Source: Geobacteraceae bacterium GWC2_55_20
GTDB taxonomy: Bacteria; Desulfobacterota; Desulfuromonadia; Geobacterales; Pseudopelobacteraceae
Assembly: GCA_001802125.1 (NCBI GenBank)
Contig: MGZK01000032.1
Coordinates: 1 to 47,033, forward strand
Length of the DNA: 47,033 bases
Direction of reading: 5' to 3'
Part shown: piece by piece, positions 13,636 through 29,063 of the stretch
How the letters are laid out: every line of letters starts with the position of its first letter
Numbering within the stretch: position 1 is the first letter of the stretch
Position numbers and translations under genes: made by a program
Notes under the pieces: generated by a model
Databases searched by the model: none
What the model was told of the DNA's origin: nothing
The model's input: only the letters and a program-made list of their open reading frames with translations

Positions 13636-14289
13636 TCAGATAAGTTTGATAACTTCCCGGACACACTTGTCAATCCCCTCATAGGCTTCGGAGATGCGGT
13701 TGGCCAGCATGTAGGCCGGGGTCGAGACCAGCTTGTTTTTTGCATCGATCACAAATTCGGTGACCGGGCAATCCTGGTGCCTGGCGCCGGTTTTTTCAAT
13801 TTCGGAGGCGGTGCCGGCATCATTGCCGATGGTCAAAGTCGGTGCGAATTCCTTGCCGAGTACGGCGGCGATCAGAACCGGCGCGATGCAGATGGCTCCG
13901 ATCGGTTTGCCGGCCGCGGCCATCTCCTTCAACAGGCGCGACACCTGCGGGTGGACCGCCGCCGCCGCTCCCTTCATCGCAAAGTCACACAGGTTTTTGG
14001 CCGCGCCGAAGCCGCCCGGAAAGATGATCGCATCCAGTTCTCCGGCCTTTACCTCGGCAATGTCGCGGATGTTGCCGCGTGCGATACGAGCCGATTCGAC
14101 CAAAGCATTGCGCTTTTCGCCGCTCTCCTGCATCGCCAGATGGTCGGTAACCGGAAAATCCGCATTTGGCGCCATGCAGACCGCTTCCGCACCCTGCCGG
14201 TCAATGGCCAGCAGAGTGAATACCGCCTCGTGAATCTCGCTTCCGTCCCTGACACCACATCCTGAAAGTACTACGCCGATTTTTTTCAT
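13636..14289 (-). CDS. elbB: ElbB-like DJ-1/PfpI superfamily protein
   Basis: Encodes 217 residues of the class I glutamine-amidotransferase-like fold. Marks are VVLSGCGVRDGSEIHEAV at the N-terminus, IIFPGGFGAAKNL, and the nucleophile elbow GAICIAP with the conserved Cys. E. coli ElbB is reported to be a weak glyoxalase and to be connected with isoprenoid synthesis; the physiological role is unclear. A strong site GGGGGA precedes ATG. It is the last gene of the long minus-strand run, 29 bases after the NAD(P)-binding protein gene, and is followed by a terminator. Confidence 0.92.
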   Translation of the reverse strand: MKKIGVVLSGCGVRDGSEIHEAVFTLLAIDRQGAEAVCMAPNADFPVTDHLAMQESGEKRNALVESARIARGNIRDIAEVKAGELDAIIFPGGFGAAKNLCDFAMKGAAAAVHPQVSRLLKEMAAAGKPIGAICIAPVLIAAVLGKEFAPTLTIGNDAGTASEIEKTGARHQDCPVTEFVIDAKNKLVSTPAYMLANRISEAYEGIDKCVREVIKLI

Positions 14290-14318
14290 GTCTGTTCCCC
14301 CTGCAACTGTAAATTGAT

Positions 14319-15242
14319 TTACGGACCGGATCCGTAATTATTGCTGTCCTCCAGAAGTGCCTGGCGGATGGCGTCATCGTAGGTGGTCAACTGTAACGGG
14401 ATCAGATCTCGGATAGAGTTGTCCCGGCAGATCACTTCATTTCCAAGCCCTTCGATCAGCGGCATCGAGACGGAAGGGGGCACCGGGCTGAACAGCGCCA
14501 CCCAGTACGAGGAGAGCCTGGGGGTCAATACCGGCACCGGGATGATAAACAACCTCTTTCCCTCCAGCATGGCAAATCGTTCCATCATTTCACGGTAGGT
14601 CATGACCTCCGGCCCACCGATGTCAAAGGTCCGCCCGGCGGTACGTTCATCCGCCAGACAGCCGGTGAGATAGGAGATCACGTCATCCACTGCTATCGGT
14701 TGACATTTTGTCGAGACCCAGCGCGGAGTGATCATCACCGGCAGGCGTCTGACCAACCCCCTAACCAGTTCGAAGGAGGCGCCGCCGGCTCCTACTATCA
14801 CGGCCGCCCGGAGAAAAGTCGTGGAAAATTTCCCGGCGCGGAGAATGTCCGCCACCTCCAGCCGGCTTTTCAAGTGTTCGGAAAGTTGATTGCCGGTTTC
14901 CCCCAGCCCACCCAGATAAATTACCCGTCGCACACCGGCCCTCTCGGCGGCCCGGACAAAATTCCCGGCCGCCTCGCGATCACGGCGCTCAAAGCCGGCC
15001 CGACCGCCGGCCATGGAATGCACCAGATAATAAACGGAATCGATGCCGTCCAGTACCGGCTCAAGGGTAGCCGGCACCAGCATATCACCGGTGACTCTTT
15101 CAGCACCAGCGGCTATTTGTGCATTTTGACTGCGTACCATGCCGCGTACACAATGCCCACTGTCAAGCAGAGTTTTTGTGAGCCGTCTGCCGATGAATCC
15201 GTTTGCGCCTGTTACCAGGACTTTTGCTCTTCCGGTTTGCAT
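14319..15242 (-). CDS. NAD(P)-binding protein, atypical SDR (NDUFA9/YwnB-like)
   Basis: Encodes 307 residues. The Rossmann loop is VLVTGANGFIGRRL (residues about 8-21), followed by VTGDMLVP and YYLVHSM, the latter typical of the NDUFA9-like branch of atypical short-chain dehydrogenases in which the catalytic YxxxK is missing. Later QPIAVDDVISYL and DIGGPEVMTYREM fit the same branch. It may bind NAD(P)H as a sensor or quinone-related factor rather than catalyse. ATG 15242 has no Shine-Dalgarno; more upstream in-frame codons are only TTG and do not help. It lies 58 bases after the DUF401 gene. Confidence 0.85.
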   Translation of the reverse strand: MQTGRAKVLVTGANGFIGRRLTKTLLDSGHCVRGMVRSQNAQIAAGAERVTGDMLVPATLEPVLDGIDSVYYLVHSMAGGRAGFERRDREAAGNFVRAAERAGVRRVIYLGGLGETGNQLSEHLKSRLEVADILRAGKFSTTFLRAAVIVGAGGASFELVRGLVRRLPVMITPRWVSTKCQPIAVDDVISYLTGCLADERTAGRTFDIGGPEVMTYREMMERFAMLEGKRLFIIPVPVLTPRLSSYWVALFSPVPPSVSMPLIEGLGNEVICRDNSIRDLIPLQLTTYDDAIRQALLEDSNNYGSGP

Positions 15243-15300
15243 GGCAGTGATTGTGCCACAACTCTCGCAGAAGGCAAGAGTCAAGATGGGAGGATGGATT

Positions 15301-16509
15301 TCAGTATGCGTAAAGCGGGATCAGGGCGGCCAGCAGGACCAGCGCGGAGGGGACGATCAGCCGGCGGTAGACCAGGGCGATATCGGCCCGGAAATATTCG
15401 CAGGTTAGCACATAGCAGAGATGCACTGGGGAGAGCATCACACCGGCAAAACCCGATCCGAAGGCCAGGGCGGTCAGCCCCGGAGATGGCGCCGGACTCC
15501 CCATCAACGGCAGCAGCAGTGGAAAGGTGATGCCGACGAAACCGACCGTCAGTCCGGTCATGATTCCGGCAATGAACGGAATCAGAATCAGCAGCAGGTA
15601 CACCGGCATGCGCGAATCCGTAAAATAGCCGGAGATGCCCGCAAGAGCGCCGGTCACACGCAGAACTTCCTGAAACACCATGATTCCGGCCACCAGGAAC
15701 AGAGCCTTGACGGAAATGCTTTCGCGAATATTTTTGACTATCATTCGGGGTGTATAGCGGTGGACAGCATACAGCGCAACGACTGCTCCTCCCAGCGCCA
15801 GAGGCGACCTGATCCGGAAAATCACCACCAGCATCAACGCCAGCATGATCGGGGAAATCATTGCCAGAAATGTCAGAAACTCACGACCGCGGTGATTTCC
15901 CGAGGAGACAGTGTTTTGATGACCGATGCCGCGAAAACAGAACAAAGCTCCCCAGAAAATCACCGAAAGGGCATAGGGCAGGTTGGCGGCAAACAGCGTC
16001 CGTGTGGAAAGCCCGGTCAGGCCCGCCGTCAGGATGATTCCGGGATAGAGCGGAGATATATACTCCCAGACATGGCGATACCAGTAGTTGATAAACGCCT
16101 TCTCTTCCGGAGTCACATCGGCTTTTCCGGTGGCTTCGTCGACCATCGGCGCCGAAAAAATCGCGCCTCCGGGAGAGGGGAGCATGCCGATCATGGCCGG
16201 CATCGCGGCCATAACCACCCGCCGGTCCGAGAGTGTGGCCGACAGTGATGCGACCATCCGTTTCAGCATTCCGGTGTTCCGCAGGATGTTCTCCATAACC
16301 ATGGTCAGCACCAGGGTCAGGGTCATTTCCAGCGATGTGGTGGCAAAAATAGCGGTGTATGTTGCTTTGAGGAAATCGGCGGGAGGGGTCAGGTAGATAA
16401 TTGCCAGCGCAAGGGAGCCGATCGGCATTACCGCCGCCATGGAAACCTTGCGGCGCAGCAGGATGATGATCAGAATCAGGACCGCGGATGTTTTCAGCAG
16501 GTCTGGCAT
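15301..16509 (-). CDS. DUF401 family integral membrane protein
   Basis: Encodes 402 residues with about ten hydrophobic segments. It matches the DUF401 (TIGR00529) layout of ion-transporter-like proteins related to gluconate/dicarboxylate permeases: MLPSPGGAIFSAPMVDEA in the middle, INYWYRHVWEYISPLYPG, and a C-terminal repeat with SAPSPGLTALAFGSGFAGVM type sequence. The substrate is unknown. The ATG lies six bases after the stop of a receiver protein and no ribosome site is evident, so translation may be coupled. Confidence 0.88.
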   Translation of the reverse strand: MPDLLKTSAVLILIIILLRRKVSMAAVMPIGSLALAIIYLTPPADFLKATYTAIFATTSLEMTLTLVLTMVMENILRNTGMLKRMVASLSATLSDRRVVMAAMPAMIGMLPSPGGAIFSAPMVDEATGKADVTPEEKAFINYWYRHVWEYISPLYPGIILTAGLTGLSTRTLFAANLPYALSVIFWGALFCFRGIGHQNTVSSGNHRGREFLTFLAMISPIMLALMLVVIFRIRSPLALGGAVVALYAVHRYTPRMIVKNIRESISVKALFLVAGIMVFQEVLRVTGALAGISGYFTDSRMPVYLLLILIPFIAGIMTGLTVGFVGITFPLLLPLMGSPAPSPGLTALAFGSGFAGVMLSPVHLCYVLTCEYFRADIALVYRRLIVPSALVLLAALIPLYAY

Positions 16510-16514
16510 TGCAT

Positions 16515-16901
16515 TCAGACCGCTCCGGCTTTTCTGTTGAGCGAACTGAAAACCATGTCAAGCACCGCTTTCTGGCGGGCTTCGAACTTGTTCAGAACAG
16601 CCAGGCAGGTTCCCATCGGGCAGAGCCCGTGCAGAAAATCCGCATCCCGCCCGGAGAGTATCACGATCCGGTTCTTGTCCATTCCCGTCTCAACAGCGAA
16701 CTTGAGCAGTTTGAGCCCGTCCATGGCCGGCATTTCCAGGTCGATCAACATCAGATCGTAACCGCCGGTTTTGATCGAATGCAGCGCCGCAACCGGATTG
16801 TTGCGGATCTCCACCTGCAGGAGCGGGTAGTTTTCGCGGATATAGTCACCCAGGAACCGGGTAAAGGCCGGGTCGTCATCGATTAACAGTATTCTTCCCA
16901 T
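16515..16901 (-). CDS. Single-domain response regulator (CheY-like receiver)
   Basis: Encodes 128 residues made of one receiver domain. The acidic pair is LLIDDDP (residues about 5-11), the phospho-acceptor lies in LMLIDLEMPAMDG, the switch Ser in ILSGRD and the Lys in VLNKFE. There is no output domain, so it acts through a partner, or as a relay. It follows the ABC-type binding-protein gene by 45 bases and is tightly followed by the DUF401 gene. Its kinase is not encoded next to it; a hybrid kinase gene lies about 7 kb further along the same strand. Confidence 0.92.
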   Translation of the reverse strand: MGRILLIDDDPAFTRFLGDYIRENYPLLQVEIRNNPVAALHSIKTGGYDLMLIDLEMPAMDGLKLLKFAVETGMDKNRIVILSGRDADFLHGLCPMGTCLAVLNKFEARQKAVLDMVFSSLNRKAGAV

Positions 16902-16946
16902 AAGAAGGCTACTATAGCCGATTCGACGCCATGGTGAAATAAAAAT

Positions 16947-17882
16947 TTACTTGATCAGCCTTGTGGCGCCACCGATCACCGCGAACGGGATTTCTATCCC
17001 CATTTCACGGGCGATCCGCATGTTGATGATCAGGTCTATTCGGTGCGGAGAGAGGAGGGAGAGGTGTTCGGTCTTTGCGCCTTCCAGAACGCGGGCTACC
17101 ATATCTGCCGCCAGATGCCCCTGCTCCTGGGGACTGATCTCCAGCGAAACCAGAGCGCCCTTAACCGCGGCATCCGGCATGGTTGACACGACCGGAATGT
17201 TCCGGGCCTTGCCCTTGGACACGACTCGATCAAACTGGCGGCTGACGGCAGCGCTCTCGGTCGCCACGATAACTTCAGCCTTGTCGAGCAGCTTGTTTAC
17301 AGCCGCGTCGAGATTGGCCGGAGAAGTAACACTTGCTTCAATTATCGTCAGGCCGAGCTGTCCGGCGTATTTTTTGATATCATCCAGCTGACGCTGTGAA
17401 CCTGCTTCACGGGGGGTGTAGAGCACTCCCACCTTGCGATAGTGCCTGACCCCCTGCAGAGTTTTGAGCAGAGTCACCATCGGCACGCGTGAACTGACTC
17501 CGCACATTCCTTTTACGGGCTGATCCGTTGCGAACACATCCACCGATACCACCGGAATTCCGTTGGATTCGCGAAAAGCGGTCATTGCGGCCGGCGCTCC
17601 ATAGGCAACTATAAGGTCAGGATTATATGCATTGAATTTGCGGACGGTATTGGTCCATGAGAGCTGGTCCGGATTCGGGGTTTGCAGGATGATTTCGGTG
17701 CCGGGCGCGGCATAGCCGCGTGCCGCTATCGCTTTGACAAATGCCCGGTGAGCTTCACGATAACGCGGCTGGTCGCTGCTCATCATTGCCGCGATAACCA
17801 CTGCGGCGAAGGAATTCAACGGTGTCATCACAGCCAGCATGATCATGCCCGCCAGGGCTATTTTTCTTACGATACGCGTCAT
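16947..17882 (-). CDS. ABC transporter substrate-binding-like protein (PF04392 type)
   Basis: Encodes 311 residues with a signal peptide cleaved near residue 26 (PLNSFAAV). The mature part has the two-lobe periplasmic fold of the ABC_sub_bind family: repeated short strands VIAAMMSSD, LIVAYGAPAAMTAFRES, IPVVSVDVF, KVGVLYTPRE, EVIVATESAAV, IPVVSTMPD and GALVSLEISPQEQG. The ligand is unknown; some relatives bind aromatic amino acids. No permease gene of that family is here. The ATG at 17882 follows AAAGG, and the upstream in-frame stretch belongs to the barrel gene. It lies eight bases after the barrel gene, suggesting a common role. Confidence 0.88.
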   Translation of the reverse strand: MTRIVRKIALAGMIMLAVMTPLNSFAAVVIAAMMSSDQPRYREAHRAFVKAIAARGYAAPGTEIILQTPNPDQLSWTNTVRKFNAYNPDLIVAYGAPAAMTAFRESNGIPVVSVDVFATDQPVKGMCGVSSRVPMVTLLKTLQGVRHYRKVGVLYTPREAGSQRQLDDIKKYAGQLGLTIIEASVTSPANLDAAVNKLLDKAEVIVATESAAVSRQFDRVVSKGKARNIPVVSTMPDAAVKGALVSLEISPQEQGHLAADMVARVLEGAKTEHLSLLSPHRIDLIINMRIAREMGIEIPFAVIGGATRLIK

Positions 17883-17890
17883 GTCAACCT

Positions 17891-19906
17891 TTACCAGCGC
17901 CCGGTCAGGGCCAGCAATGTTTCGTGAGCAGCGCCGTCCAGGCTCGGCTGTCCTGCATTCAGCATCCTGAAACTGTAACCGAGCGAACAACCCAGGTGTT
18001 TGCTGATGCGCATATCCGCACGGCTGGTCAGTGAGGTTGCGGTAGAGACCAGTCGTGCCTGGTCGCCAATTCCGTCTACTGAATATGTTGTTGAATTGTT
18101 TGTATCGCCGGAAGCCGAAAAACTGATGTCCGAGAAGGTCTGCTGCAGCGCCAGGGACAGGTCGAGTATGCTGGTCAGCGCCACGACCGTATCCAACGAT
18201 AATACATGGGCGGTCGAGCTGTAGGAACCATAAGCCCGGATTGGGAGTTCGATCTCATTTTCACCGAAATAGGTATAAATGCTGGCCTGTTCGGTATGCA
18301 GTTGTTGAAAGGAGTAGCCGGCGTTGACCGTGACCCGCTGCATCGGACTGAACCAGGAGCTGCAGTTGACGGAAGTGGAGAGTCTCTCCACCGGCAACAC
18401 CGCCTGTTCATAACTACTCTCTCCCTTTTCAAACCGCCCCAAATAGCTGGCTGTCATTCCCCAGCGTCCGCCGTCAGTATAACTGATCAGCGCCTGTCCG
18501 GTGTGGCGCTCCGCAAAAGAGGACTGATAGGCCGGGTTGTCGGTTTCGGCGTAGCTGTAGGAGGCGTTAAGTTTCACACCGTCAAGCGGCTTCCAGATAA
18601 AGGTCGCTTTCCCGGTATGGGTCTGGCGGCTATCGTTTTTGGTGGCGTTGGGTACGCTTGATTGAAGATCCGGCAGATCATCGCGGGATTCGAGTTCCGC
18701 GCGGTATTCGAAGCGGTACACGACTTTAAGTCGCGGCCTGTAGCTGGCCGACACGACGAGCGTATCCTTCACCGAGGAGCTTGACGGTCTCACCGCCAGG
18801 CTGGTTGCGGAAGGAGGCACTGACAGCGGTGAATAGAGCGTTTCGGGAGATTCCCGGTCGATTTGCAGGCGACGGTACTTGACGGCCAGCATCAACTCCT
18901 TGAAGGGGGTGTAGCTGAGATCGCCGGCGGCTGTCTGCAGTGTATCCGTTGGAGCGCTGGAGGGGCGGGCGTCACCACGGTCCGTAGCGGTTTCATGCCG
19001 GCTGATCGAATAGAGCGCGCTGGTGGTCAACCCGCCGCTCAGGTCACTGAAAAGTTTGAAGGTGTGCGAAACCAGCCGGCTATCGTTGATCACATCGTGG
19101 GCCAGCGTGTCGCGAGCAGCAAACTGATAGCGGTTGTCCGGCGCCTGGTTCGAAAAATCGCGGATAGTAAAGAGATAGGCCGCATTGACCGGGCCGAGAT
19201 GGGCGTCCAGTCCGATCGATCCCTCGCGGGTTACGCTGTCGATCGGAATCGAACGTGTGGCACTGCTGTTGGGGTTTCCATCAAAAGCGTAATCCGAAAA
19301 ACGGAGCTGGGTCGTCCCTTCACGGCTCAGCTGCCAGTAGTTTAGATTCAGGTGGATCGGATTGTTCCCCAATTTGATGCGATTGTCGGCGCGGGTGATG
19401 ACAGCCCTGGCTCCATAGTTACTGCCGCTGTCCAGTTCGCGGGCAGTGACGGGGGCTGTGCCAGAGGCGATGGAAACGGGCGGAGTCCGTTCCAGGTTAT
19501 GCCAGAGCGAGGTGCTCTGGATTTTCAAACGGTACAAGCCGGAATAGTCCAGCACCAGTCCGGCATTGTAATCATCGGCGTGCAAAAACTGGGTTTCAGC
19601 CAGAAGTTTCAGATCACTGCCGACCGTGCCGACGGAAAAACCGCCGCTGACACCAGACTTGAGTCTCAGATACGGCGCGGCGGCGGCCGGATTGTCAACC
19701 GGCGATACAAAACGATAGCCGGCATAGGCCGCGGCATGCTGATACCCTTCATCATCCGCGACAAAATCTTCAGCAATCAACGGATCATCATAATCGGTTG
19801 TATCATCACAAAGCGCCGGATGGGCCGCTGCCAGAAGGGCCGCGACCACCAGGGGCAGTCTGAGGAAAAACAGGTTTGGCGGAATTTTGTTGAAGATCCG
19901 TTTCAT
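17891..19906 (-). CDS. Outer-membrane beta-barrel, MtrB/PioB-like porin of cytochrome conduit
   Basis: Encodes 671 residues. A signal peptide ends near ALCDD (about residue 33). The rest consists of many alternating amphipathic strands with aromatic girdles and short turns, ending in LALTGRW, an aromatic end as expected for a barrel inserted by the BAM machinery. Length and position directly after an MtrA-sized decaheme cytochrome match the porin of porin-cytochrome electron conduits (MtrB/PioB family), although I see no classical N-terminal CxxC of MtrB. The start is three bases after the cytochrome stop, with its GGAG inside the previous gene, so the two are tightly coupled. Function is inferred from fold and context. 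Confidence 0.8.
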   Translation of the reverse strand: MKRIFNKIPPNLFFLRLPLVVAALLAAAHPALCDDTTDYDDPLIAEDFVADDEGYQHAAAYAGYRFVSPVDNPAAAAPYLRLKSGVSGGFSVGTVGSDLKLLAETQFLHADDYNAGLVLDYSGLYRLKIQSTSLWHNLERTPPVSIASGTAPVTARELDSGSNYGARAVITRADNRIKLGNNPIHLNLNYWQLSREGTTQLRFSDYAFDGNPNSSATRSIPIDSVTREGSIGLDAHLGPVNAAYLFTIRDFSNQAPDNRYQFAARDTLAHDVINDSRLVSHTFKLFSDLSGGLTTSALYSISRHETATDRGDARPSSAPTDTLQTAAGDLSYTPFKELMLAVKYRRLQIDRESPETLYSPLSVPPSATSLAVRPSSSSVKDTLVVSASYRPRLKVVYRFEYRAELESRDDLPDLQSSVPNATKNDSRQTHTGKATFIWKPLDGVKLNASYSYAETDNPAYQSSFAERHTGQALISYTDGGRWGMTASYLGRFEKGESSYEQAVLPVERLSTSVNCSSWFSPMQRVTVNAGYSFQQLHTEQASIYTYFGENEIELPIRAYGSYSSTAHVLSLDTVVALTSILDLSLALQQTFSDISFSASGDTNNSTTYSVDGIGDQARLVSTATSLTSRADMRISKHLGCSLGYSFRMLNAGQPSLDGAAHETLLALTGRW

Positions 19907-19909
19907 CGG

Positions 19910-20896
19910 TTATCTCCGCAGTGATCCGGGAACGAAAGTTCCGGGGGCGTCCGGTGTATTAGAACCATGTATGGCAGTGTGACAATCGGTGCAGCGATTG
20001 GCAAAGAGCCTCTTGTCAGTCGAGCTCAACACGTTGGGATGTACCGGAGTGTGGCACTGGATACAGAGAAACGGCATCGCCGCCGACAGCAGGCGCCGGT
20101 TGACCGAACCGTGCGGCTGGTGGCAATTGATACAGTTCTCGGTCACGTCGCCATGCTCATAGACAAACGGCCCGCTCTTTTCCATGTGGCAGCGTGCGCA
20201 GAGCTCACGCGTGCTGTTCCCCTTCAGCATTTTGGGGCTGGTGGAGCCATGGGCCTCGTGACAATCGAAACAGTTCTGTTTGCGCTCATGCATCGGATGG
20301 TGTGATACCAGGCTGAACTGGGCTTTGACATCCGGATGACAGCCATAACAAAGTTCAGCCATCTTGTCGCGGTTGACCTTCTGCTGGGGACCTTCGTGCA
20401 GCTTATGGCACGTAGAACAGCTCAGGTCATTCAGCGCGTGCGCACTGGTATTCCAGTGTGAAAGGGAGGGGGTGGAGGCAAGACTGTGGCATTTCAGGCA
20501 GATCAGCGACTGCGCCTGCGGCGGAAGGGTTTTCAGGTTGATCAGCTTGGTAGTGTCGCAGCGATTGCCCTTCTCGCCCAGCAGCTTCACATTCTGCTCG
20601 ATCTTCGCTATGGCGAGGTTGCCGGGACCATGGCACGACTCACAGTTCACCAGCGGAAGACCGGTTTCCGGCTTGATCTGCTCGCCATGCACGCTCAGCC
20701 TGGAAAATTCCCTGATTTTGTCATGGCTATGGCATTTGGATACACAGTTGTCGTCGCCGACATAATCCGCATCCATACGTCCGACAACCATCTTTTCGTA
20801 CTCGGATACGGGCAGCAGCGGATAGGGCTGTTTCAGCGCCGTACAGGCGCTCAACAGCGCGATTGCGGAAAATATCAGTGTTAATAATCGACGCAT
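19910..20896 (-). CDS. Decaheme c-type cytochrome lipoprotein (MtrA/DmsE-like)
   Basis: Encodes 328 residues, close to MtrA in size. The leader ends in the lipobox LLSAC (Cys18), so the protein should be lipid-anchored. Nine CXXCH motifs are seen: CESCH, CLKCH, CSTCH, CYGCH, CFDCH, CARCH, CINCH, CIQCH and CTDCH. Before them lies C51-VSK-C55-H56, a CX3CH at the place expected for the first heme, giving ten probable hemes. Spare His residues fit bis-His ligation. With the barrel gene three bases downstream it probably forms a conduit carrying electrons across the outer membrane. Ribosome site AGAGGGA precedes ATG. Confidence 0.92.
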   Translation of the reverse strand: MRRLLTLIFSAIALLSACTALKQPYPLLPVSEYEKMVVGRMDADYVGDDNCVSKCHSHDKIREFSRLSVHGEQIKPETGLPLVNCESCHGPGNLAIAKIEQNVKLLGEKGNRCDTTKLINLKTLPPQAQSLICLKCHSLASTPSLSHWNTSAHALNDLSCSTCHKLHEGPQQKVNRDKMAELCYGCHPDVKAQFSLVSHHPMHERKQNCFDCHEAHGSTSPKMLKGNSTRELCARCHMEKSGPFVYEHGDVTENCINCHQPHGSVNRRLLSAAMPFLCIQCHTPVHPNVLSSTDKRLFANRCTDCHTAIHGSNTPDAPGTFVPGSLRR

Positions 20897-20914
20897 TAAA
20901 TTCCCTCTTGCAGA

Positions 20915-21658
20915 CTACGGCCCGTTGATCCCCTTGGTGGTGGTGCGGATGAAGCCTTTTACAAACGGGTTTTCGCTGCTCTTTATCTCCCTGGGCGTTC
21001 CTACCTCGACAATGCGCCCCTGGTGCATCATGGCAATCCGGTCGGACAGGTACAGGGCAAAATTAAGATCGTGGGTAACTATGATCGTGGTGGTGCTGGT
21101 ACGGCTGCGCAGCGAGACGATGGTTTCAGCCAGTTCATCGGTGGTTACCGGGTCCAGCTCGGCGGTCGGCTCGTCATACAGAACCAGATCCGGTTCCATG
21201 GCCAGAGAGCGCGCAATGGCGACCCGTTTTTTCATGCCCCCTGAAAGCTCCGACGTCCGCAGTTCCTCTTTTCCTTCCAGCCCGACAATCGCCAGCTTTT
21301 CAGCAATGATTTCAAGAATGCGCTGCTCCGGATAAATCCGGTGTTCACGAAGCCAGAGGCCGATATTTTCACCGACCGTCAGTGAATTGAAAAGAGCCGA
21401 AGATTGAAACACCATGCTGCTGCGATAACTGCGGGGAAGCTTTCCATGCGGCTCTTCATTAATGAGAATCCGGCCACTGTCGGCTGTTTCCAGGCCGATG
21501 ATATGTCGCAGTAGTATGCTTTTGCCGGTACCGGAAGGTCCGATGATGGAAAATGTTTCTCCCGCCCTGACTTCCAGGTCCACATCCTTGAGCACATGAT
21601 TGCCGCCGAATGATTTATTCAGTTTTTCAATACAAACAGTAACGCCGTGTGGTTGCAT
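20915..21658 (-). CDS. MlaF-like ABC transporter ATP-binding protein
   Basis: Encodes 247 residues with Walker A GPSGTGKSILLRHI, Q-loop VFQSSALFNSLTVGENI, signature LSGGMKKRVAIARS, Walker B DLVLYDEPTAELDP and H-loop VTHDL. The signature LSGGMKKR and SSALFNSLTV are typical of the MlaF/Ttg2A/MCE branch that moves phospholipids between the membranes. Normally mlaE (permease) and mlaD (MCE protein) follow, but here the neighbours are a four-helix membrane protein upstream and cytochrome genes downstream. It may serve permeases encoded elsewhere or use the neighbouring small membrane proteins as partners. It precedes the decaheme gene by 18 bases. Confidence 0.92.
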   Translation of the reverse strand: MQPHGVTVCIEKLNKSFGGNHVLKDVDLEVRAGETFSIIGPSGTGKSILLRHIIGLETADSGRILINEEPHGKLPRSYRSSMVFQSSALFNSLTVGENIGLWLREHRIYPEQRILEIIAEKLAIVGLEGKEELRTSELSGGMKKRVAIARSLAMEPDLVLYDEPTAELDPVTTDELAETIVSLRSRTSTTTIIVTHDLNFALYLSDRIAMMHQGRIVEVGTPREIKSSENPFVKGFIRTTTKGINGP

Positions 21659-21703
21659 TATTTATTCCAGTTTTACATGCGCGCTAATTTGTCTCGATTA
21701 ATT

Positions 21704-22153
21704 TCAAAACAGGTACCAGGAACGGTTGGTGAAGTATTCCCGATGTTTGTAAATAAAGCCGGAAAGCAGTAGTATAGCAACCATTACCGATATGTTGCTC
21801 ATCATTATTCCCTGGGGATCGACCTTGTCGCCGACCAGCTTCTCAAGCTCCGCGGATGTAATCCAGAACAGGTTTGTCAGTGTATTCACCAGTTCAAAGG
21901 CGTTATAACCGAGCAGCAGGTACCATGTCAGGGTCTGGCGCTTCATCAGCCCCAGAAAGAGGTAGAGGCAGATCAGGCTATCTACGAATACCAGCGCTTC
22001 GGCGGCTCTTCCCTGGTAGATGGTCCCGAAAAAAGGGAACGGGTGCCCGAATGTTGACATGGTCAACAGGAAGAAGAACAGATACAGCCCCCCCAGAAGC
22101 ACCATCCCCAGAGGCCGGCGGTGTTCTTGCTCGTCGTTGTCGATTTCCGTCAT
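21704..22153 (-). CDS. Hypothetical four-helix membrane protein
   Basis: Encodes 149 residues from ATG 22153, five bases after GAGGA. A charged N-terminal tail (about 14 residues) precedes four hydrophobic segments, roughly residues 16-37, 50-68, 75-95 and 118-135, with a basic/aromatic end RSWYLF. I do not recognise the family. The segment PFPFFGTIYQGRAAEALVFVD looks like a connecting loop between helices 1 and 2. It lies between a 34-residue membrane peptide and the MlaF-like ATPase, so it could be part of a membrane complex with them. Confidence 0.75.
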   Translation of the reverse strand: MTEIDNDEQEHRRPLGMVLLGGLYLFFFLLTMSTFGHPFPFFGTIYQGRAAEALVFVDSLICLYLFLGLMKRQTLTWYLLLGYNAFELVNTLTNLFWITSAELEKLVGDKVDPQGIMMSNISVMVAILLLSGFIYKHREYFTNRSWYLF

Positions 22154-22178
22154 GGAGTCCTCGCGTTTCCGGCGTTTT

Positions 22179-22283
22179 TCACGATTGCTTTTTCTTGCGC
22201 ATGTCGCTGACAGCGACACATAGAAAGATCACCACCAGCACTCCGCCGCAGAAAATCCAGTCAGCCAGGCTGAATCCGAACAT
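22179..22283 (-). CDS. 34-residue single-span membrane peptide
   Basis: ATG 22283 to TGA 22181-22179 encodes 34 residues: a short N-terminus (MFGFSLADW), one hydrophobic helix IFCGGVLVVIFLCVAVS and a positively charged tail MRKKKQS, so N-out/C-in topology is expected. AAGGAG six bases before the ATG is a near-perfect ribosome site, and the start is only two bases after the stop of the TPR gene. This placement and the clear helix make it a real gene in my view. It resembles CcoQ-like small subunits only in size and layout. A role as a subunit of a membrane complex of this operon is inference. Confidence 0.75.
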   Translation of the reverse strand: MFGFSLADWIFCGGVLVVIFLCVAVSDMRKKKQS

Positions 22284-22285
22284 GC

Positions 22286-23194
22286 TCAACTCCTTTTGAA
22301 AGCTTGCGCCGCTTGATCCATCAGTCCGATTTTCTGATAGCAGGTGCCCAGCAGATAGTAAATCTCGTTCATTGGAAACTGTTCCGCAAAAACGGTGTCG
22401 GACAGGACATCCTCGATAATTGCGACCGCTTCGTCGTTTCGTCCGGCATGCTGCGCCTCTACCGCCACGGCCAGCGCCGTCAGATAATCCAGCGGGGGAA
22501 CCATGGGCAGCTTGCCTGTCAGGATACCCGCGATCCTGGATTCCACCCGCGCCCGCTCGGACGGTTCGAATTGCTGCAGCGCGCCGCTCCAGATTTCGGC
22601 CGCCTGTTGATAGCGTCCAAGCACATAAAGCGCTTCTCCATACTCATAGATCGCATGCCGGTCGTCAGGATTCAGTTCCAATGTTTTTTTGAGAAATTTT
22701 TCAGCGTTGTACCAGCTGGATACGGCCTGGTGCAAGGTCGAAATACGGGTGCCCTTGTCCGTAAAGGTGCGGGCTATCTCCAGGGGCAACCCGGCGTTGG
22801 CCGGGTCGAACAGGGTCATGATCTTCAGAAAGTTGATCTTGCGATCCAGGTAAGGAGTGTCAACCTCCTTTGCATCCAGCATTATGATCTGGCCGCCCAG
22901 GTCGGAAACGATGTGCGGGTAAGCCTCTTTCAGCAGCGCGGCGTAATCGGCCGCAAACGCACATTCAGGGTTCTGGCGCAAGGCATGGTAGACTCCGCGC
23001 CCCACCATGTCGTAATCGGGTGATCCGCAGGTTTCCGCAGCCGGATAATCTTCATCAATCAACGGAATGGGAGGCCGGCCTTCCCAGGCGATATCAACCA
23101 GTCCATCCCTGCCGGTCAGGACATAGCCGGCTGGAGGAGTAAAATAGCGAATGCCGTCAAGCGGCGTTGGTGCAAACTGTTTGCTGTCGTTCAT
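22286..23194 (-). CDS. TPR-repeat protein of unknown function
   Basis: Encodes 302 residues with no signal peptide. The N-terminal third is unrecognised (DGIRYFTPPAGYVLTGRDG). From about residue 165 there are TPR-like helical pairs: AEKFLKKTLELNPDDRHAIY, EYGEALYVLGRYQQAAEIW, AVEAQHAGRNDEAVAIIEDV and IYYLLGTCYQKIGLMDQAAQ. TPRs bind partner proteins, so an adaptor or assembly role for this operon is plausible. The ATG overlaps the preceding stop (ATGA), and the small membrane peptide gene starts two bases after its end. Confidence 0.85.
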   Translation of the reverse strand: MNDSKQFAPTPLDGIRYFTPPAGYVLTGRDGLVDIAWEGRPPIPLIDEDYPAAETCGSPDYDMVGRGVYHALRQNPECAFAADYAALLKEAYPHIVSDLGGQIIMLDAKEVDTPYLDRKINFLKIMTLFDPANAGLPLEIARTFTDKGTRISTLHQAVSSWYNAEKFLKKTLELNPDDRHAIYEYGEALYVLGRYQQAAEIWSGALQQFEPSERARVESRIAGILTGKLPMVPPLDYLTALAVAVEAQHAGRNDEAVAIIEDVLSDTVFAEQFPMNEIYYLLGTCYQKIGLMDQAAQAFKRS

Positions 23195-24033
23195 CGTTTC
23201 TCCTGTTCTCTGTCCGGAAACATTTCCACTCCGGCGTTGACTCCGATTACCTTGTAGATCTGCACATCATCCCATGGTTCATCCATGATGCCGTCATGAA
23301 TGGCCCAGCTCCGGCCCCTTACCGTGCGTTCCATCCCCGGCATGCGGAAAGGCGTGGAACCGTCCAGACGTTTATGGTAGCGCCCCCCGGGCCGGAACTC
23401 CCGGTCAATCTCCCGCATCAGCCGCTTACCGCGCAGATAGTCGAAACCATACTTTTCATAGCGAATGGCATTGTCGTAGGAAAGCGGCTCAGCCACGATC
23501 ATCTCTATACCCAGAGCATCGGTAAAACGCTCCAGCAAGGGGAAAAATTCGGAAAACAACTGCAGGCCGCGCCTGGTCTGGTTCGGAAACAGTCCAGCCC
23601 GCATCGAGCGCAGCTCTTCGGCAATATTACGGCCATGGGACGCGAACCAGTTGATTTTCCCATGTTCATCCACATCCACATCAAAGCGCGGCGCTGACGG
23701 GTCGCAGATAACACAGAAGCAGAGCTCCAGCTGATGGAACTGTGTATCGGCCAGCTCAAGAAAAAAAACCGTGTCACTGTCATCCGGCCGTTTTCGCACT
23801 TCGATTCTCACCAGCGCCAGGCCTTGGGGGGCGATAAAGGCAACCAGACGCTCCCCGGCGGCGTTACACGGTGAATCACCGCAAAGCCCCACCAGATGCC
23901 GAAGGCGCTCCGGCAGCAGACCGGCATAAAGCCGTTCTTTTTCCGCCACCTTCAGGCGGTTGATTGCCCGAATCGAGCGGAGCGGTGCTCCGCTGGCGTC
24001 CAACAGCTGACTATTTCCGGGTAACCGAGCCAT
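23191..24033 (-). CDS. Hypothetical protein, partner gene of AcuC-like deacetylase
   Basis: Encodes 280 residues from ATG 24033, which overlaps the end of the deacetylase gene by 23 bases; the ribosome site is weak and coupling is likely. No membrane segments. The C-terminal half contains SYDNAIRYEKYGFDYLRG, which recalls the A-x-x-x-YEK-x-GF element at the end of GNAT acetyltransferases, but the acetyl-CoA loop is not obvious. I therefore do not assign a family. If it were an acetyltransferase-like protein, its pairing with the deacetylase would echo acuA-acuC. It overlaps the TPR gene by four bases. Confidence 0.75.
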   Translation of the reverse strand: MARLPGNSQLLDASGAPLRSIRAINRLKVAEKERLYAGLLPERLRHLVGLCGDSPCNAAGERLVAFIAPQGLALVRIEVRKRPDDSDTVFFLELADTQFHQLELCFCVICDPSAPRFDVDVDEHGKINWFASHGRNIAEELRSMRAGLFPNQTRRGLQLFSEFFPLLERFTDALGIEMIVAEPLSYDNAIRYEKYGFDYLRGKRLMREIDREFRPGGRYHKRLDGSTPFRMPGMERTVRGRSWAIHDGIMDEPWDDVQIYKVIGVNAGVEMFPDREQEKR

Positions 24034-25171
24034 ATCGACCAATAATACCTGGGAAAATGCTCTTTTTGATGCGGGCAATGCTTGTTTCCACGGCCGTCAG
24101 AGCCAGATTGCGGTCCTCTTCCGAGGCCCAGTGCATCGCATCCAGCAGAACGCGATGGGGATATCCCAGCGGTTTTATTCGGGACATGAAGGCTCCGGGC
24201 AGGCGCGGGTTTAGCTGCCGGCCGTTCATTACGGCCCAGGCGATGGTCCAGGCGCGAGCCGTGTTCATCAGGTCGTATCCGCCTCCGCCCAGGGCCACCC
24301 AGGGTATTTTCAGCGCTTTCAGCTTTCGCATGATGTAGCTGTAACTGTGGGTGGTTATCTCCAGACGGGTGAGCGGGTCGGTGCGAAAAGTATCCGCTCC
24401 TATCTGGGTGACGATCACATCCGGGTCGTAAGCCGCTATCAGCGGGTAAGCCACTTCGTCGAATGCTTTCATAAACAGGGCGTCATCGGTGTGGGCTATC
24501 AACGGTACATTGACCGAATACCCCTTGCCGCGCCCCTCTCCGATCTCATCCTCGAATCCGGTGCCCGGATAAAAGTAGATGCCGCTTTCATGCAACGATA
24601 TGGTCAGAACCCGGTCGCTGTCGTAAAAACCTTCCTGCACTCCATCCCCGTGGTGGGCGTCGATATCAAGATAGACTACCCGGCGGCCACGGGCAACCAG
24701 CCAGTTTATCGCCACCACGGCATCGTTGATGTATGAAAAGCCCGATGCCCTGGCGCGGTGGGCATGGTGCCAACCTCCCGCCAGATTGAAGGCGATCTCG
24801 AAGCCTTCCTCCTCCACCAGCCTGACAGCCTCGAATGTTGCTCCGGCTCCCAAGGCGGCGCAATCGAAAAGCCCCTTGAATACCGGACAATCCGCATCGC
24901 CGAGTCCGTATCTGAAATCCGCGCGCGGTTCGTCGGAAGCGCTGAATTCCCGAAGACGGTCGATGTAGGCCGGATCGTGAAATGTCAGCAACAGTTCGTC
25001 ACTGATCGGCCCGCAATCACGAATCTCCATGTTTGGCAGATCAAGCAGCCCGTATGCGTCAAACAGGTCATATGCCAACCGGTTGCGCTGCAGCTTGAAC
25101 GGGTGTTCATCGCCATAACTGAAATTGCCGAAAAGCGGCGAGTAAATCAAGGCAGTACGGCGGGGGCGCAT
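24011..25171 (-). CDS. acuC: AcuC-like class I/II histone-deacetylase family protein
   Basis: Encodes 386 residues. Zn-dependent deacetylase motifs are complete: LAGGWHHAHRARASGFSYIN (the HH pair), LDIDAHHGDGVQEGFY (metal Asp and His), IGADTFRTDPL (second metal Asp) and GGGGYD (catalytic Tyr region). In Bacillus AcuC deacetylates and thereby activates acetyl-CoA synthetase, so control of acetate use, the key electron donor of such bacteria, is a natural proposal. I chose ATG 25171, where homology begins and AGG lies eight bases upstream; ATG 25213 is an alternative. This is the first gene of the 13-gene minus-strand run. Confidence 0.92.
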   Translation of the reverse strand: MRPRRTALIYSPLFGNFSYGDEHPFKLQRNRLAYDLFDAYGLLDLPNMEIRDCGPISDELLLTFHDPAYIDRLREFSASDEPRADFRYGLGDADCPVFKGLFDCAALGAGATFEAVRLVEEEGFEIAFNLAGGWHHAHRARASGFSYINDAVVAINWLVARGRRVVYLDIDAHHGDGVQEGFYDSDRVLTISLHESGIYFYPGTGFEDEIGEGRGKGYSVNVPLIAHTDDALFMKAFDEVAYPLIAAYDPDVIVTQIGADTFRTDPLTRLEITTHSYSYIMRKLKALKIPWVALGGGGYDLMNTARAWTIAWAVMNGRQLNPRLPGAFMSRIKPLGYPHRVLLDAMHWASEEDRNLALTAVETSIARIKKSIFPGIIGRYGSVTRK

Positions 25172-25328: not shown

Positions 25329-26144
25329 TTATGCGTAGAAGGACAGCGGCTGGAATACTTCGGCGGCAGCTGGAGTTTTCGATGAGGTTCCTGGCATTGC
25401 TGGAGAGGAGATAGTTGAAGAACTCTCGGGCGAAGTTCCGGAAGACGCGTCCGCAGCGGTGGAAGACTCTTCTGTTCCGGTTGCCGCCGCTGCAGCCGCC
25501 TCCTGCCGGGCCTGTTGCTGCTGAGTGGAGGCCTGTGCGGCAACAGCGCGGTCCTGGGGTGACGGGTCGGCCGGCGCCAGGGCTGCCCGGATCACCTGCT
25601 GCATGCGGCTGATGGTCTCCTGCGGGGTCTTGCCGGGAGAAACCTCGATCGGCACTTCACCGCCGGTGACATAACTCCTGCCATCGGGGCCACGGGTATA
25701 GGTATAGGAAACAGGTCCGGTCATCGTGCCCCCGGCCGATTTGTGGGCGGCCTCGTGGGCCTTGACCTTTGCTTCGATCGACTTGAGCCGGGCAATTTCG
25801 GCCTGAACCTGCGCATCCTGTTCCTGGTCACTACCGCCGGCGGTTGCGAGTGGAGCGCTGGTGGAACTCTTTTCGCTGCTTCCGCTCCGGGATTCTTTAC
25901 CGTCTTTCGCAGTAACGGCCACATCTCCGCCAGATTTTTGTAACGATGGCGAATATGGAGTAAACTCCGCCGCGCCTGAGACGGACTGTTGAACCCCCAG
26001 CTGCCGGCCGGATTGTTCAGAATAGCCCCAAGTCGGACGCCCGGCGCCGCTGTTGACGACGCCGACTCCGCTCTCCCGCATCAGGCGAGCCGCATAGCCG
26101 GATCGATCCGGCGAAGAAGCATATGTGGAGGAGATGGCTTCCAT
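25329..26144 (-). CDS. SprA-related putative metalloprotease (PF12118)
   Basis: Encodes 271 residues. The conserved core, about residues 125-205, carries KVKAHEAAHKSAGG, with the HExxH-like HEAAH, followed by GPVSYTYTRGPDGRSYVTGG and IEVSPGKTPQETISRMQQV. This is the signature of the SprA-related family, annotated as putative metalloproteases and common in proteobacteria. The flanks are low-complexity Ser/Gly/Ala/Gln-rich stretches, giving a disordered appearance. No signal peptide is evident. The gene stands alone, 157 bases ahead of the deacetylase gene. Function is not established. Confidence 0.85.
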   Translation of the reverse strand: MEAISSTYASSPDRSGYAARLMRESGVGVVNSGAGRPTWGYSEQSGRQLGVQQSVSGAAEFTPYSPSLQKSGGDVAVTAKDGKESRSGSSEKSSTSAPLATAGGSDQEQDAQVQAEIARLKSIEAKVKAHEAAHKSAGGTMTGPVSYTYTRGPDGRSYVTGGEVPIEVSPGKTPQETISRMQQVIRAALAPADPSPQDRAVAAQASTQQQQARQEAAAAAATGTEESSTAADASSGTSPESSSTISSPAMPGTSSKTPAAAEVFQPLSFYA

Positions 26145-26257
26145 CCGTTACCCCATGTTTCCCTACTTTGCCGATTGAGTATACTAAATCGATATCGTGT
26201 CAGGCAACAGGAATTTTGTCGCATATCCGGTATGATAGCGAATATCCCGGAACAGGC

Positions 26258-26289
26258 GCGGGGCCAGCGGAAATGTATGCAGGCCCCGC
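26258..26289. repeat. Perfect 8-bp inverted repeat downstream of the MCP gene
   Basis: GCGGGGCC (26258-26265) and GGCCCCGC (26282-26289) are exact reverse complements around a 16-base loop. The repeat lies about 35 bases after the MCP stop (minus strand). It would form a strong hairpin in the 3' end of the MCP transcript. There is no T-run, so it is a stability hairpin or a Rho-type end rather than a classical terminator. Confidence 0.55.
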
Positions 26290-26323
26290 ATGGTGACGCT
26301 ACCGGCATGTTACCGGGCTTAGA

Positions 26324-28039
26324 TCACATCCTGAACTGAGCCACGATCCGCTTCAGCTCCTCGGCCATTCTGGCCAGCTGGCTGGCGGCTCCGGCGGTGT
26401 CCTGTGAGCTGTGCGATGCGCTGCTGACAACCCCGGTGATCTCGTGCATGCTCTTACTGATCTCGTTGGTGGTTGCGGTCTGCTGTTCGGCCGCGGTGGC
26501 GATCTGGTTGATCTGGCTGGTCACGTCGCCAACCTGGCTGAGGATCTCTTCCAGCGCCTTGCCGGAACGGGCCGCGTCCTCGGTGCCGCGTTCAACCTCG
26601 TGGACACCTTCCTCCATCGCGGCTACCGCGGACTTGGTCTCCTGCTGAATGGCCTTGATCATTTCACCGATCTCACGGGTGGCCTTGGTCGTGCGTTCGG
26701 CCAGGGCGCGCACTTCATCGGCAACGACCGCAAAACCGCGGCCCTGTTCGCCGGCCCTGGCCGCTTCGATGGCCGCATTGAGCGCCAGCAGGTTGGTCTG
26801 GTCGGCAATGTCCTCGATGGTTCCGACGATGTTGCCGATCTGTTCCGAGCGGGAGCCGAGCGATTCAACCGTTTTGGCGCTCTGCTGAACCTTGACCGCA
26901 ATACGCTGAATGCTTTGAACCGCGTTGCTGACAACTTCCGAACCGCTCATGGCGGTCTGGGTGGCGCGGTTGGATATTTCAACGGTCCGGATGCAGTTCT
27001 GGGCAATCTCCGCCGATGTGGCCGCCATCTCCTCGCAGGCAATAGCCACCGAGGTTGATTGCGAAGCAGCCGTTTCAGTGCCTCCGGCGATCGTGGCAGC
27101 GGTCATGTTGAGATGCTCCGCCGACGAAGCCACCTCAATCGCATTATTGTTGATACGGGTAACGATCTCTTTCAGGTTGTCAAGAAAGTTGTTGAAAGAG
27201 CGTGCCAGCGACCCGGTTTCATCTTCACGTTCGACCTTCAGCCGTTTGGTCAGGTCGCCGCCGCCGCTGGACATCTCTTCCAGGCTTGCGTCAACATAAC
27301 CCAGGGTTTTAGTGATGCCGCGACTGATCAGATAGCAGAGCGTCAGCATGAACACTGCAAAAACGATATTCAGGCTGACCAGAATCCATTTGACGGTATC
27401 CACGTCTTTTTTAACGTCATCAACATAGATACCACTTCCCAGAACCCAGCCCCAGGGTTCAAACTTCTGGACATAGGAGAGCTTGGTGTAGAGCTCGCTG
27501 GTCGTACCGCCGCCGGCCTTGGGCTTCGGCCATTCATAGTTGACGAATCCCAGGCCGGCCCGTTCAACCACCTCGTTGAAGGTTACAAACAGGTTCTTGT
27601 TATCGATTTTCTGAACTGCGCCGGCCAATCCGTCACTCATCGTGGTGGCCTTGTTGAATTTGGGATCATCCAGCACCTTGCCGTCCAATGATGGCACGGT
27701 CGGATGCATGATCATCTTCGGCACCGGCTTACCCAGATCATTGATCCATACGTACTCCTTTTTTTCGTACCGCAGCTTTGAAATACGTGCCGCGGCATCC
27801 TTCTGGGCCTGTTCCAGCGGCAGCCTGCCGGCCTTCACCTCAGCGTCCTGAAACTCTAATATCCCCATGGCCACCTCGACGATATGACGGGTGGCATCTT
27901 GTTTTTCCCTGATGATGCGAGATTCGATCAATGGCAGCAGGTATGTAAACAGGCCGATCATCATCACCGCAACACTGATGACCGAAATGGACATGATCTT
28001 GTACTGAATGCGCCAGTTTTTGAATTGGGTGATTTGCAT
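26324..28039 (-). CDS. Methyl-accepting chemotaxis protein with single Cache_2 sensor
   Basis: Encodes 571 residues. Membrane helix 1 is at about 13-34 and helix 2 at about 210-230. Between them lies an sCache_2 domain with [20 protein letters not shown] and [18 protein letters not shown], which in relatives binds small organic acids. HAMP (about 232-285) and the signaling hairpin follow, with the conserved tip [20 protein letters not shown] and [16 protein letters not shown]. There is no C-terminal CheB/CheR-tethering pentapeptide. AAAGGAG lies seven bases before the ATG. It is the third gene of a set with a receiver and a CheB, so these may form a dedicated sensory module. Confidence 0.95.
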
Positions 28040-28067
28040 GCTTTGTCTCCTTTGGGCGGTCTGGGAA

Positions 28068-28631
28068 TTATCCGAAAAGTGAAAAAAGTTTATCTGCTAT
28101 TTTTTCCGTTCCAAGTATGAAGTCGATCATGCCGGTCTCGGCGGCCGCCTTGGGCATGCCATAGATCACACTGGTCTTCTGGTCCTGGGCGATGGTAACC
28201 CCACCCAGTTGCTTGATGTGCGCGATGCCTGCCGCCCCGTCACTGCCCATGCCGGTCAGGATTACTCCTGCCACTCTCTGACCTGCCGGCGAGGTGAGTG
28301 ATTTCATTGCCACATCGATCGAGGGGCGCACGGAATTGACCTTTTCGCCATTGGACAGGTGAAAAGATCGATTTCCCACCAGATGCAGGTGCAGCCCGCC
28401 CGGAGCCAGGAAAACATTGCCCGATTGAAGCGTCTGCCCCTCACGCGCAAGCATGACCGGCATCTTTGAGACCCTTGCCAGCGAGGTTACAAAGGCCTGG
28501 TCGATCAACGGAGTTATGTGCTGGACGATCACAACCGCCGCCTTCAATACCGGCAGGCGCGGAAACAACTGCTCCAGAACCTTGAGGCCGCCGGTGGAAG
28601 CCCCGATCATGACAAGGTTGCATTGCGGCAT
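28068..28631 (-). CDS. CheB methylesterase domain protein lacking a receiver
   Basis: Encodes 187 residues covering only the CheB catalytic domain. The triad is present: Ser12 in GASTGG, His in IVQHIT, Asp in [18 protein letters not shown] closes the domain. CheB removes methyl groups from chemoreceptor glutamates and can deamidate glutamines. Without the usual N-terminal receiver, activity is either constitutive or set by a separate protein; the stand-alone receiver gene ends three bases before it. No cheR is next to it. Ribosome site GGAG lies eight bases upstream. Confidence 0.93.
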
Positions 28632-28634
28632 CCG

Positions 28635-29063
28635 CTAGGCTCCGCTCTGGATACGATCCAGAAGTTTCAGGTACATCCGGATCGAGGCTATCAATTCCGA
28701 CGGCTCAAAGGGTTTGATGATATAATCGATCACGTTCTCCTTGAGCCCTTCCAAACGTTCGTCCGGGACATCCATCGCCGTCAGCATCGAAATGATATTG
28801 CCCTGTATCAACCCCTCTTTTTTCATCTCGCGGATCGTCTCCCAGCCATCTTTTCCGGGCATCATCACATCCATCAGGATTAAGCCCCGAAACCCCTCCC
28901 GCAGAAGCCTCAGACAGTCGCCGGCTTCGGCGACGATCAATGCGCTAATCCCCTCGGAGTCGAGCAGTTCGTGCATGGTTTCCCGGATACATTCTTCGTC
29001 ATCAACCACCATGACCCGTGGAAAATGGGAGTCAGAACCCTTCAAAGGAACCGCTTCGATCAT
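28635..29063 (-). CDS. Single-domain response regulator
   Basis: Encodes 142 residues with a receiver domain from about residue 16. VMVVDDEECIRETMHELL holds the acidic pair, LILMDVMMPGKDGWE the phospho-acceptor Asp, SMLTAMD the Thr, and DYIIKPFEP the Lys. No output domain exists. GGGAG lies seven bases before the ATG. As first gene of the receiver-CheB-MCP set it probably regulates the receiver-less CheB or the receptor. The LysR gene is divergent across a 220-base gap. Confidence 0.92.
   Translation of the reverse strand: MIEAVPLKGSDSHFPRVMVVDDEECIRETMHELLDSEGISALIVAEAGDCLRLLREGFRGLILMDVMMPGKDGWETIREMKKEGLIQGNIISMLTAMDVPDERLEGLKENVIDYIIKPFEPSELIASIRMYLKLLDRIQSGA

Follow-up and report, generated by a model that had tools for sequence, protein, structure and literature searches.

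A modular envelope locus of the Geobacterales with an optional MtrAB-type conduit and an optional MlaF-like ATPase

Introduction

In Geobacteraceae bacterium GWC2_55_20, a run of thirteen genes (positions 13636 to 25171 of the 47,033-nucleotide stretch of contig MGZK01000032.1 analyzed here, hereafter the window) brings together a decaheme cytochrome, an outer-membrane barrel, an ABC ATPase, a periplasmic binding protein, small membrane proteins, a deacetylase and a receiver domain. What do such different genes have in common, and do they form one machine? A preliminary description of this DNA treated the thirteen genes as a unit, in which an outer-membrane electron conduit may be coupled to a transport or regulatory machine containing an orphan MlaF-like ATPase. 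Here, we show that the run is a modular conserved envelope locus, composed of a frame and an optional cassette located between the four-helix protein gene and the receiver gene. In our best explanation, to which we assign a probability of roughly 0.72, the cassette contains two independent parts: an MtrAB-type conduit together with a binding protein that has no permease in the run, and the ATPase of an MCE lipid transporter for which the MlaE and MlaD genes lie at other sites in the genome. Unless another contig or locus is named, coordinates are those of the window, and all features lie on the minus strand.

Results

Gene order and modular composition

Two sets of relatives were used. The first comprised 98 genomes (the window's own genome and relatives), in which the barrel was searched and found in 41; the 40 barrel-bearing loci besides the window are a sample picked by the barrel and hence biased toward the conduit. 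Ninety-three of the 98 genomes gave a locus, and 83 carried the TPR protein gene and the receiver gene on one stretch. The second, named sample consisted of 80 loci selected by the TPR protein, being the best 80 of 100 relatives found; their titles refer to Geobacteraceae, Desulfuromonadaceae or -ales, and unplaced Deltaproteobacteria or Proteobacteria. Modules were counted in 69 of these, as 11 of the 80 were left out because the receiver was not on the contig. The two sets overlap, and the two module counts are not independent. Alignments were built from 34 of 39 TPR sequences (A1; window and 38 others), 33 of 40 barrels (A2; window and 39) and 28 of 31 full-length GNAT-like sequences (A3; window and 30), with near-duplicates and fragments dropped.

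A comparison of gene order across relatives, which had been proposed as a check in the preliminary description, indicated that the cluster is indeed conserved: the order of the detected core genes was identical in 80/80 named loci. Among the 40 barrel-bearing loci, the decaheme, TPR and peptide genes were present in every one, the binding protein gene in 39, the deacetylase, receiver and ATPase genes in 37 each, the four-helix gene in 35 and the GNAT-like gene in 30, and some of the absences are contig ends. The three tail genes, DUF401, ElbB and SDR, were detected in 7, 5 and 4 of these loci, respectively, and in 28, 24 and 6 of the 80 named loci. These low counts indicate that the core consists of the first ten genes and that DUF401, SDR and ElbB are local additions.

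Four of the core genes, those for the ATPase, the decaheme, the barrel and the binding protein, are optional. All four were present in 36 of the 83 loci and none in 27, and the partial sets were the binding protein only (8 loci), the ATPase only (7), the ATPase with the binding protein (3) and the conduit with the binding protein (2). Similarly, the 69 named loci contained no optional gene in 30 cases, all in 24, the binding protein alone in 8, the ATPase with the binding protein in 3, the conduit with the binding protein in 3 and the ATPase alone in 1. The frame therefore occurs without the conduit in 45/83 and 42/69 loci. As the other frame genes stay together where the conduit is missing, the frame is independent of the conduit. 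The preliminary description had named a regular separation of the decaheme/barrel pair from the other genes as the observation that would speak against its thirteen-gene unity, and this separation is what the counts reveal. Where the TPR and receiver genes bound the stretch, the conduit was always accompanied by the binding protein (27/27 named loci; 38/38 in the 83-locus set). A tree of the cluster proteins implies nine or more changes in the state of the conduit among genomes at least 90% complete, a set of 84 genomes defined without regard to contamination (a stricter set has 79).

These distributions bear on the view that the modules share only a permissive insertion site and a promoter, with frame, conduit and ATPase being functionally unlinked. 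Every combination of ATPase, conduit and binding protein was seen, save a conduit without the binding protein, in keeping with such a site. However, all 41 barrel-bearing loci examined (the window and 40 others) lie inside the frame, and the order of the detected core genes is invariant in the named sample. We consider this view a serious contender whose chances fall somewhat short of even.

The frame occurs throughout the order, and the TPR protein was found in 92/98 genomes. Beyond the order, the frame was found only in part, in family f7. In the class families f5 and f6 (TPR relatives L159, L161 and L164), the other frame genes were not found by profile; L162 and L163 are short contigs and show little. 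Among cultured strains, Oryzomonas japonica has all modules, Pelotalea chapellei has the conduit without the ATPase, and Trichlorobacter thiogenes has frame genes only. Geobacter sulfurreducens did not appear by name among the loci and genomes sampled.

The porin-cytochrome conduit and the binding protein

PioAB and MtoAB are porin-cytochrome conduits that combine a DmsE-family decaheme with an MtrB-type barrel. The decaheme gene of the run (19910..20896) encodes a protein with a lipobox-like N-terminus, as judged by eye, and with nine CxxCH motifs and one CxxxCH motif, the latter recognized by eye in the window; the same set of motifs occurs in 40/40 relatives. The protein passed the DmsE-family model TIGR03508 (258.9 bits; cut-off 192.2) and matched 6r2q_A in a PDB sequence-profile search (E 2.4e-37). 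The title of this entry is 'Structure of the Mtr complex', although the depositors' label for chain A is odd.

The adjacent barrel gene (17891..19906) encodes a protein for which no Pfam match and no PDB sequence-profile match under E 0.2 were found. Its AlphaFold2 model, with a predicted local distance difference test score (pLDDT) of 80.3, contains about 24 long strands by our own count. The best Foldseek match of this predicted model was 6r2q_B (E 4e-17; next 4e-8). With VIA, 6r2q_B again ranked first (Z 18.6 over 548 residues, root mean square deviation 12.4), at a moderate lead over the next match (Z 16.2). Thus, the family model, the heme motifs and the MtrB-like predicted fold support the identification of the pair as an MtrAB-type conduit, in line with the porin-cytochrome conduit of the preliminary description, through which electrons would be expected to flow.

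The same description emphasized that no outer-surface cytochrome is present. No surface MtrC/OmcA decaheme is encoded within the run, and to this extent the remark stands; however, the lack is not novel, being known for mtrAB clusters, and the window's own genome has one protein above the cut-off of TIGR03507 (MtrC family) elsewhere. This OmcA/MtrC-family decaheme lies at G000:C44:54627-56930, in an open reading frame of ~1030 codons with 10 CxxCH motifs, on the same contig as the solitary MlaD gene described below. MtrC/OmcA was also considered as an obligate partner in trans of the conduit. This idea was unsupported, since such proteins were above the cut-off in 16/41 barrel-bearing genomes vs 8/57 other genomes.

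The binding protein gene (16947..17882; PF04392, 120 bits) follows the barrel gene. Because the run contains no permease, the probable role of this protein is to sense or deliver a periplasmic ligand.

The ATPase and its probable partners

The ATPase gene (20915..21658; PF00005) precedes the decaheme gene. Its product is 68% identical over 251 residues to an ATPase encoded between MlaE and MlaD in a relative from the same class (L160). In this genome (G433), a four-gene set (outer-membrane-like protein, MlaE, ATPase, MlaD) comes after the deacetylase, GNAT-like and TPR genes; a second class relative (G415, L158) shows the TPR gene with the same contiguous MCE set. The window's own genome contains an MlaE gene on contig C4 (PF02405) whose product is 63% identical to MlaE of L160. 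It sits behind a TolC-like gene, and no MlaF or MlaD gene adjoins it. An MlaD gene on contig C44 (PF02470) is the best and the sole full-length match of this genome to the class-relative MlaD, and searches of C44 for MlaE and for the ATPase were both without a match. The ATPase, MlaE and MlaD are therefore encoded on three separate contigs.

Next, the distribution of the three proteins was compared at thresholds of E 1e-90 for the ATPase, 1e-60 for MlaE and 1e-50 for MlaD. They were detected in 51, 49 and 52 of the 98 genomes, respectively. Among the 84 genomes at least 90% complete, 42 had all three, 41 had none and one (G069) had MlaE and MlaD only. The ATPase of G069 was then found split over two contigs (residues 3-126 and 139-245), which changes the tally to 43 with all and 41 with none. 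G082 remains a mismatch, as its ATPase is broken into two parts that lie in different frames. The three genomes that have the conduit without this ATPase (G044, G045 and G053), where paralogues are at most 43% identical, are also devoid of this MlaE and this MlaD. The distribution of the ATPase thus follows that of an MlaE and an MlaD from other loci, indicating that the ATPase is probably not the orphan it was first taken for. The contiguous MlaE-ATPase-MlaD genes of the class relatives provide a second, separate line of evidence. Most likely, to judge from these sequence comparisons, the ATPase is the motor of a dispersed MCE lipid transporter.

The degree of dispersal differs among families. 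In the 47 genomes with all three proteins at these thresholds, the MlaE and MlaD genes lie within 2 kb of each other in 34, none of which belongs to the window's family, and the ATPase and MlaE genes share a contig in 14, never less than 15 kb apart. In families f2-f4, the genes for MlaE and MlaD are together, without that of this ATPase; wherever all three were detected in the window's family, they lie apart.

Several observations weigh against the assignment of the ATPase to an MCE transporter. It scored 158.9 of 441 bits on the NCBIfam MlaF model NF008809, below the cut-off, with PhnT2, PotA and other models scoring higher. The top-ranked PDB entries, which we take to be Mla complexes, are labelled 'ABC transporter ATP-binding protein', and chains labelled MlaF came 12th and below. 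Identity between the own MlaD and that of the class relative is only 34%. In four genomes of 66-88% completeness, the ATPase was found but MlaE was not, and in one of the four MlaD was also missing. A second own MlaE gene (C84), with no neighbouring MlaF gene, encodes a possible competing partner, although its identity to MlaE of the class relative is only 30%, over 70% of the latter. Finally, an independent-pair test on a tree made from the cluster's own proteins by a quick method yielded three supported pairs for the ATPase, MlaE and MlaD; all agreed, and the test is underpowered (sign test, p 0.25). With only three such pairs, the statistics alone do not set aside shared ancestry.

The same distributions were used to weigh a single transport-coupled electron machine composed of the conduit, the ATPase and the small membrane proteins, close to what had been proposed earlier. 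The conduit and ATPase genes are adjacent and co-directional in 36/83 loci, and their co-occurrence is above chance in the raw table, with the ATPase in 37/41 barrel-bearing genomes at the search thresholds. Nevertheless, G044, G045 and G053 keep the conduit without the ATPase, and 9 of the 84 genomes at least 90% complete keep the ATPase without the conduit at these thresholds (10 counting G069). Moreover, among six supported independent pairs with opposite barrel states, the ATPase differed in the same way in 1.0 and showed no difference in 4.9 on average. The coupling of conduit and ATPase in one machine was thus rejected on presence/absence, and we regard it as highly improbable.

Alternatively, the ATPase could form a minimal ABC transporter with the four-helix protein and the 34-residue peptide. 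The genes are adjacent, and three loci of family f2 (L199-L201) keep the peptide, ATPase and receiver genes together on a contig that does not carry the TPR gene, the four-helix gene being detected in L200 only. However, the peptide occurs in 83/83 loci, including 37 without the ATPase; some ATPase-bearing loci have no detected four-helix gene, although divergence can hide it; and MlaE and MlaD follow the ATPase far better. Such a transporter seems quite unlikely. A CcmA-like role in cytochrome maturation was considered because of the TPR protein and the small peptide in the run; CcmA was not named in the best 25 of 189 NCBIfam matches, no further test being made, and the candidate was set aside.

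Other genes were observed near the MCE components. Encoded before MlaE is a protein of ~490 residues that begins with a signal-like sequence and has no match in Pfam (L160:10390-11868; homologues in L211-L217). This arrangement was observed in f7, in a single f1 genome (L211) and in those f2-f4 loci that were examined, and the protein is possibly an outer-membrane partner of MCE transporters. The own MlaE gene (G000:C4, L166) is preceded by the gene for the TolC-like outer-membrane factor and by two further genes, presumably pabB-like and RND-pump-like (resistance-nodulation-division). On G000:C8 (L225), a small ABC-ATPase-like open reading frame is followed by a gene for an MCE protein, with no MlaE gene in the 3.2-kb stretch.

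The frame genes

The run begins with the gene of a histone-deacetylase-like (AcuC-like) protein (24011..25171), a frame gene present in 74/83 loci with TPR and receiver. A Hist_deacetyl domain is present (PF00850, E 5e-84), and DxDxHHGDGVQ and GGGGY stretches, which we take to be deacetylase motifs, were seen by eye. The preliminary description called this protein an AcuC deacetylase; the domain bears out the second word, but beyond it the AcuC label has no confirmation, and no NCBIfam match was found for the protein. The next gene (23191..24033; 58/83 loci) encodes a 280-residue protein with no Pfam or NCBIfam match; none of the 28 aligned members of its family matched Pfam (0/28), and a PDB sequence-profile search gave nothing under E 0.2. 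Its AlphaFold2 model is of low confidence (pLDDT 62.5). With this model, the best Foldseek match had E 0.37 and the best VIA match Z 4.6, and acyltransferases made up most of the 50 matches listed. On this predicted model, the protein is at best weakly GNAT-like, and the poor fold match is no evidence for a new fold. The GNAT-like protein and the deacetylase could be a reversible acylation pair.

The TPR protein (22286..23194), a frame gene product, has Pfam TPR matches and no evident signal peptide. It is followed by the frame gene for the 34-residue peptide (22179..22283), which appears by eye to span the membrane once. This peptide gene was detected by tblastn in 78/80 named loci and, at a lenient profile cut-off of 12 bits, in all 83 loci of the genome set; in the profile search of the named loci, which drops overlapping frames, it was undercounted (55/69). 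In 820 pairwise comparisons, the proportion of synonymous differences (pS) was 0.70 and that of nonsynonymous differences (pN) 0.17, indicating that the peptide is under strong purifying selection. The 149-residue protein encoded by the next frame gene (21704..22153; 71/83 loci) shows four membrane helices by eye and has no Pfam match. The 3' end of the frame is the gene for a stand-alone receiver domain (16515..16901; PF00072, 49 bits vs cut-off 30.2), found in 69/80 named loci.

One may imagine the frame as an envelope-control module of the order, in which an inner-membrane hub for reversible acylation and phospho-signals, with the peptide as a membrane switch, would govern whichever outer-membrane programme is plugged in, that is, the MCE lipid transporter in the ancestor and the conduit with the binding protein in later lineages. 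We put this forward as a tentative and rather doubtful idea.

Layout and neighbourhood of the run

As stated in the preliminary description, the thirteen genes are co-directional and tightly packed, with no intergenic gap larger than 58 bases and several junctions overlapping, including those of the deacetylase and GNAT-like genes (23 bases) and of the GNAT-like and TPR genes (4 bases). Gene starts were picked from spacing and from comparison with relatives. The tail genes encode a DUF401 membrane protein (15301..16509; PF04165, E 2e-54), an NAD(P)-binding SDR/NmrA-like protein (14319..15242; PF13460) and ElbB of the DJ-1/PfpI family (13636..14289; NF008747, 322 bits vs cut-off 180). Three prime of ElbB lies an intrinsic terminator-like hairpin of 11 pairs, six of them G-C, followed by T6 (13614-13589). 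Terminator-like matches across the whole region are at about the level of chance (18 observed vs 15.0 +/- 3.2 in shuffles), and this hairpin is the one convincing terminator, located at the end of the run as had been noted earlier. The layout suggests that the run may be transcribed as a single operon. No Rfam match above the gathering score was found in the window.

Upstream, on the same strand, positions 25329-29063 encode a SprA-related protein and a Cache-domain chemoreceptor, each of which accompanies the cluster in 5/40 loci, and two further genes that we assume to resemble CheB and a receiver. In three loci from other families of the order (L056, L070 and L071), a conserved protein of ~130 residues is encoded 3' of the receiver in place of DUF401, SDR and ElbB, and the second gene 3' of the receiver is presumably signal-peptide-peptidase-like.

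Discussion

If the proposed arrangement is correct, electrons from the quinol pool would reach periplasmic cytochromes through enzymes encoded elsewhere, pass along the ten hemes of the lipoprotein, which would sit within the barrel, and exit to an outside acceptor or to surface cytochromes made elsewhere. Independently, the ATPase would assemble in trans with MlaE and MlaD and drive phospholipid movement between the membranes.

In this locus, an MtrAB-type conduit has a constant place in the genome beside six conserved genes, including that of the 34-residue membrane peptide, and questions about the assembly and control of the conduit can therefore be addressed to defined genes. Because cultured strains differ in their module sets (Oryzomonas japonica, Pelotalea chapellei and Trichlorobacter thiogenes), a direct comparison is possible. 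The apparently orphan ATPase gains predicted partners. In the literature searched, which comprised listings and passages and covered few subscription papers, we found neither this locus described as a unit nor any account of a split MlaF from this group.

Compared with MlaEFD of the Veillonella type, the proposed transporter is similar in having an MlaF-like ATPase, an MlaE and an MlaD that extends beyond the MCE domain, with the three genes contiguous in two class relatives; it differs in that the own genome has the three genes on three contigs. MlaEFD has been proposed as the ancestral core in a study that surveyed MlaF only within five genes of other Mla genes (PMC10665443). So limited, the survey would miss the ATPase of the window; an MCE transporter with apparently scattered ATPase, permease and MCE protein is a case that escapes synteny.

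The conduit resembles MtrAB, PioAB and MtoAB in that its decaheme is above the TIGR03508 cut-off, its barrel finds MtrB as the best fold match, the pair is adjacent and no surface cytochrome lies beside it. It differs from them in its lipobox-like decaheme, in the PF04392 binding protein alongside and in its position inside the frame locus. In contrast to MtrCAB, the outer-surface MtrC/OmcA decaheme is not with the pair. Earlier reports state that MtrAB moves electrons by itself and that mtrC is missing from some clusters (PMC4245776), and that mtrC is found apart from mtrAB in Desulfobacterota (PMC12133095). The nearest named Geobacter families are those of GSU2203 (OmcK) and GSU2204 of Geobacter sulfurreducens, both of which rise with iron oxides in that species (PMC4070692). 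The run's pair falls below both family cut-offs: the window decaheme scored 221.8 of 325 bits on the GSU2203 family, for which the two decahemes scanned gave 222 and 237, and the window barrel scored 101.1 bits on NF041027 (GSU2204 family; cut-off 350). The GSU2204 family is named for a CxxCH motif, whereas 39/39 barrels of the relatives are without one.

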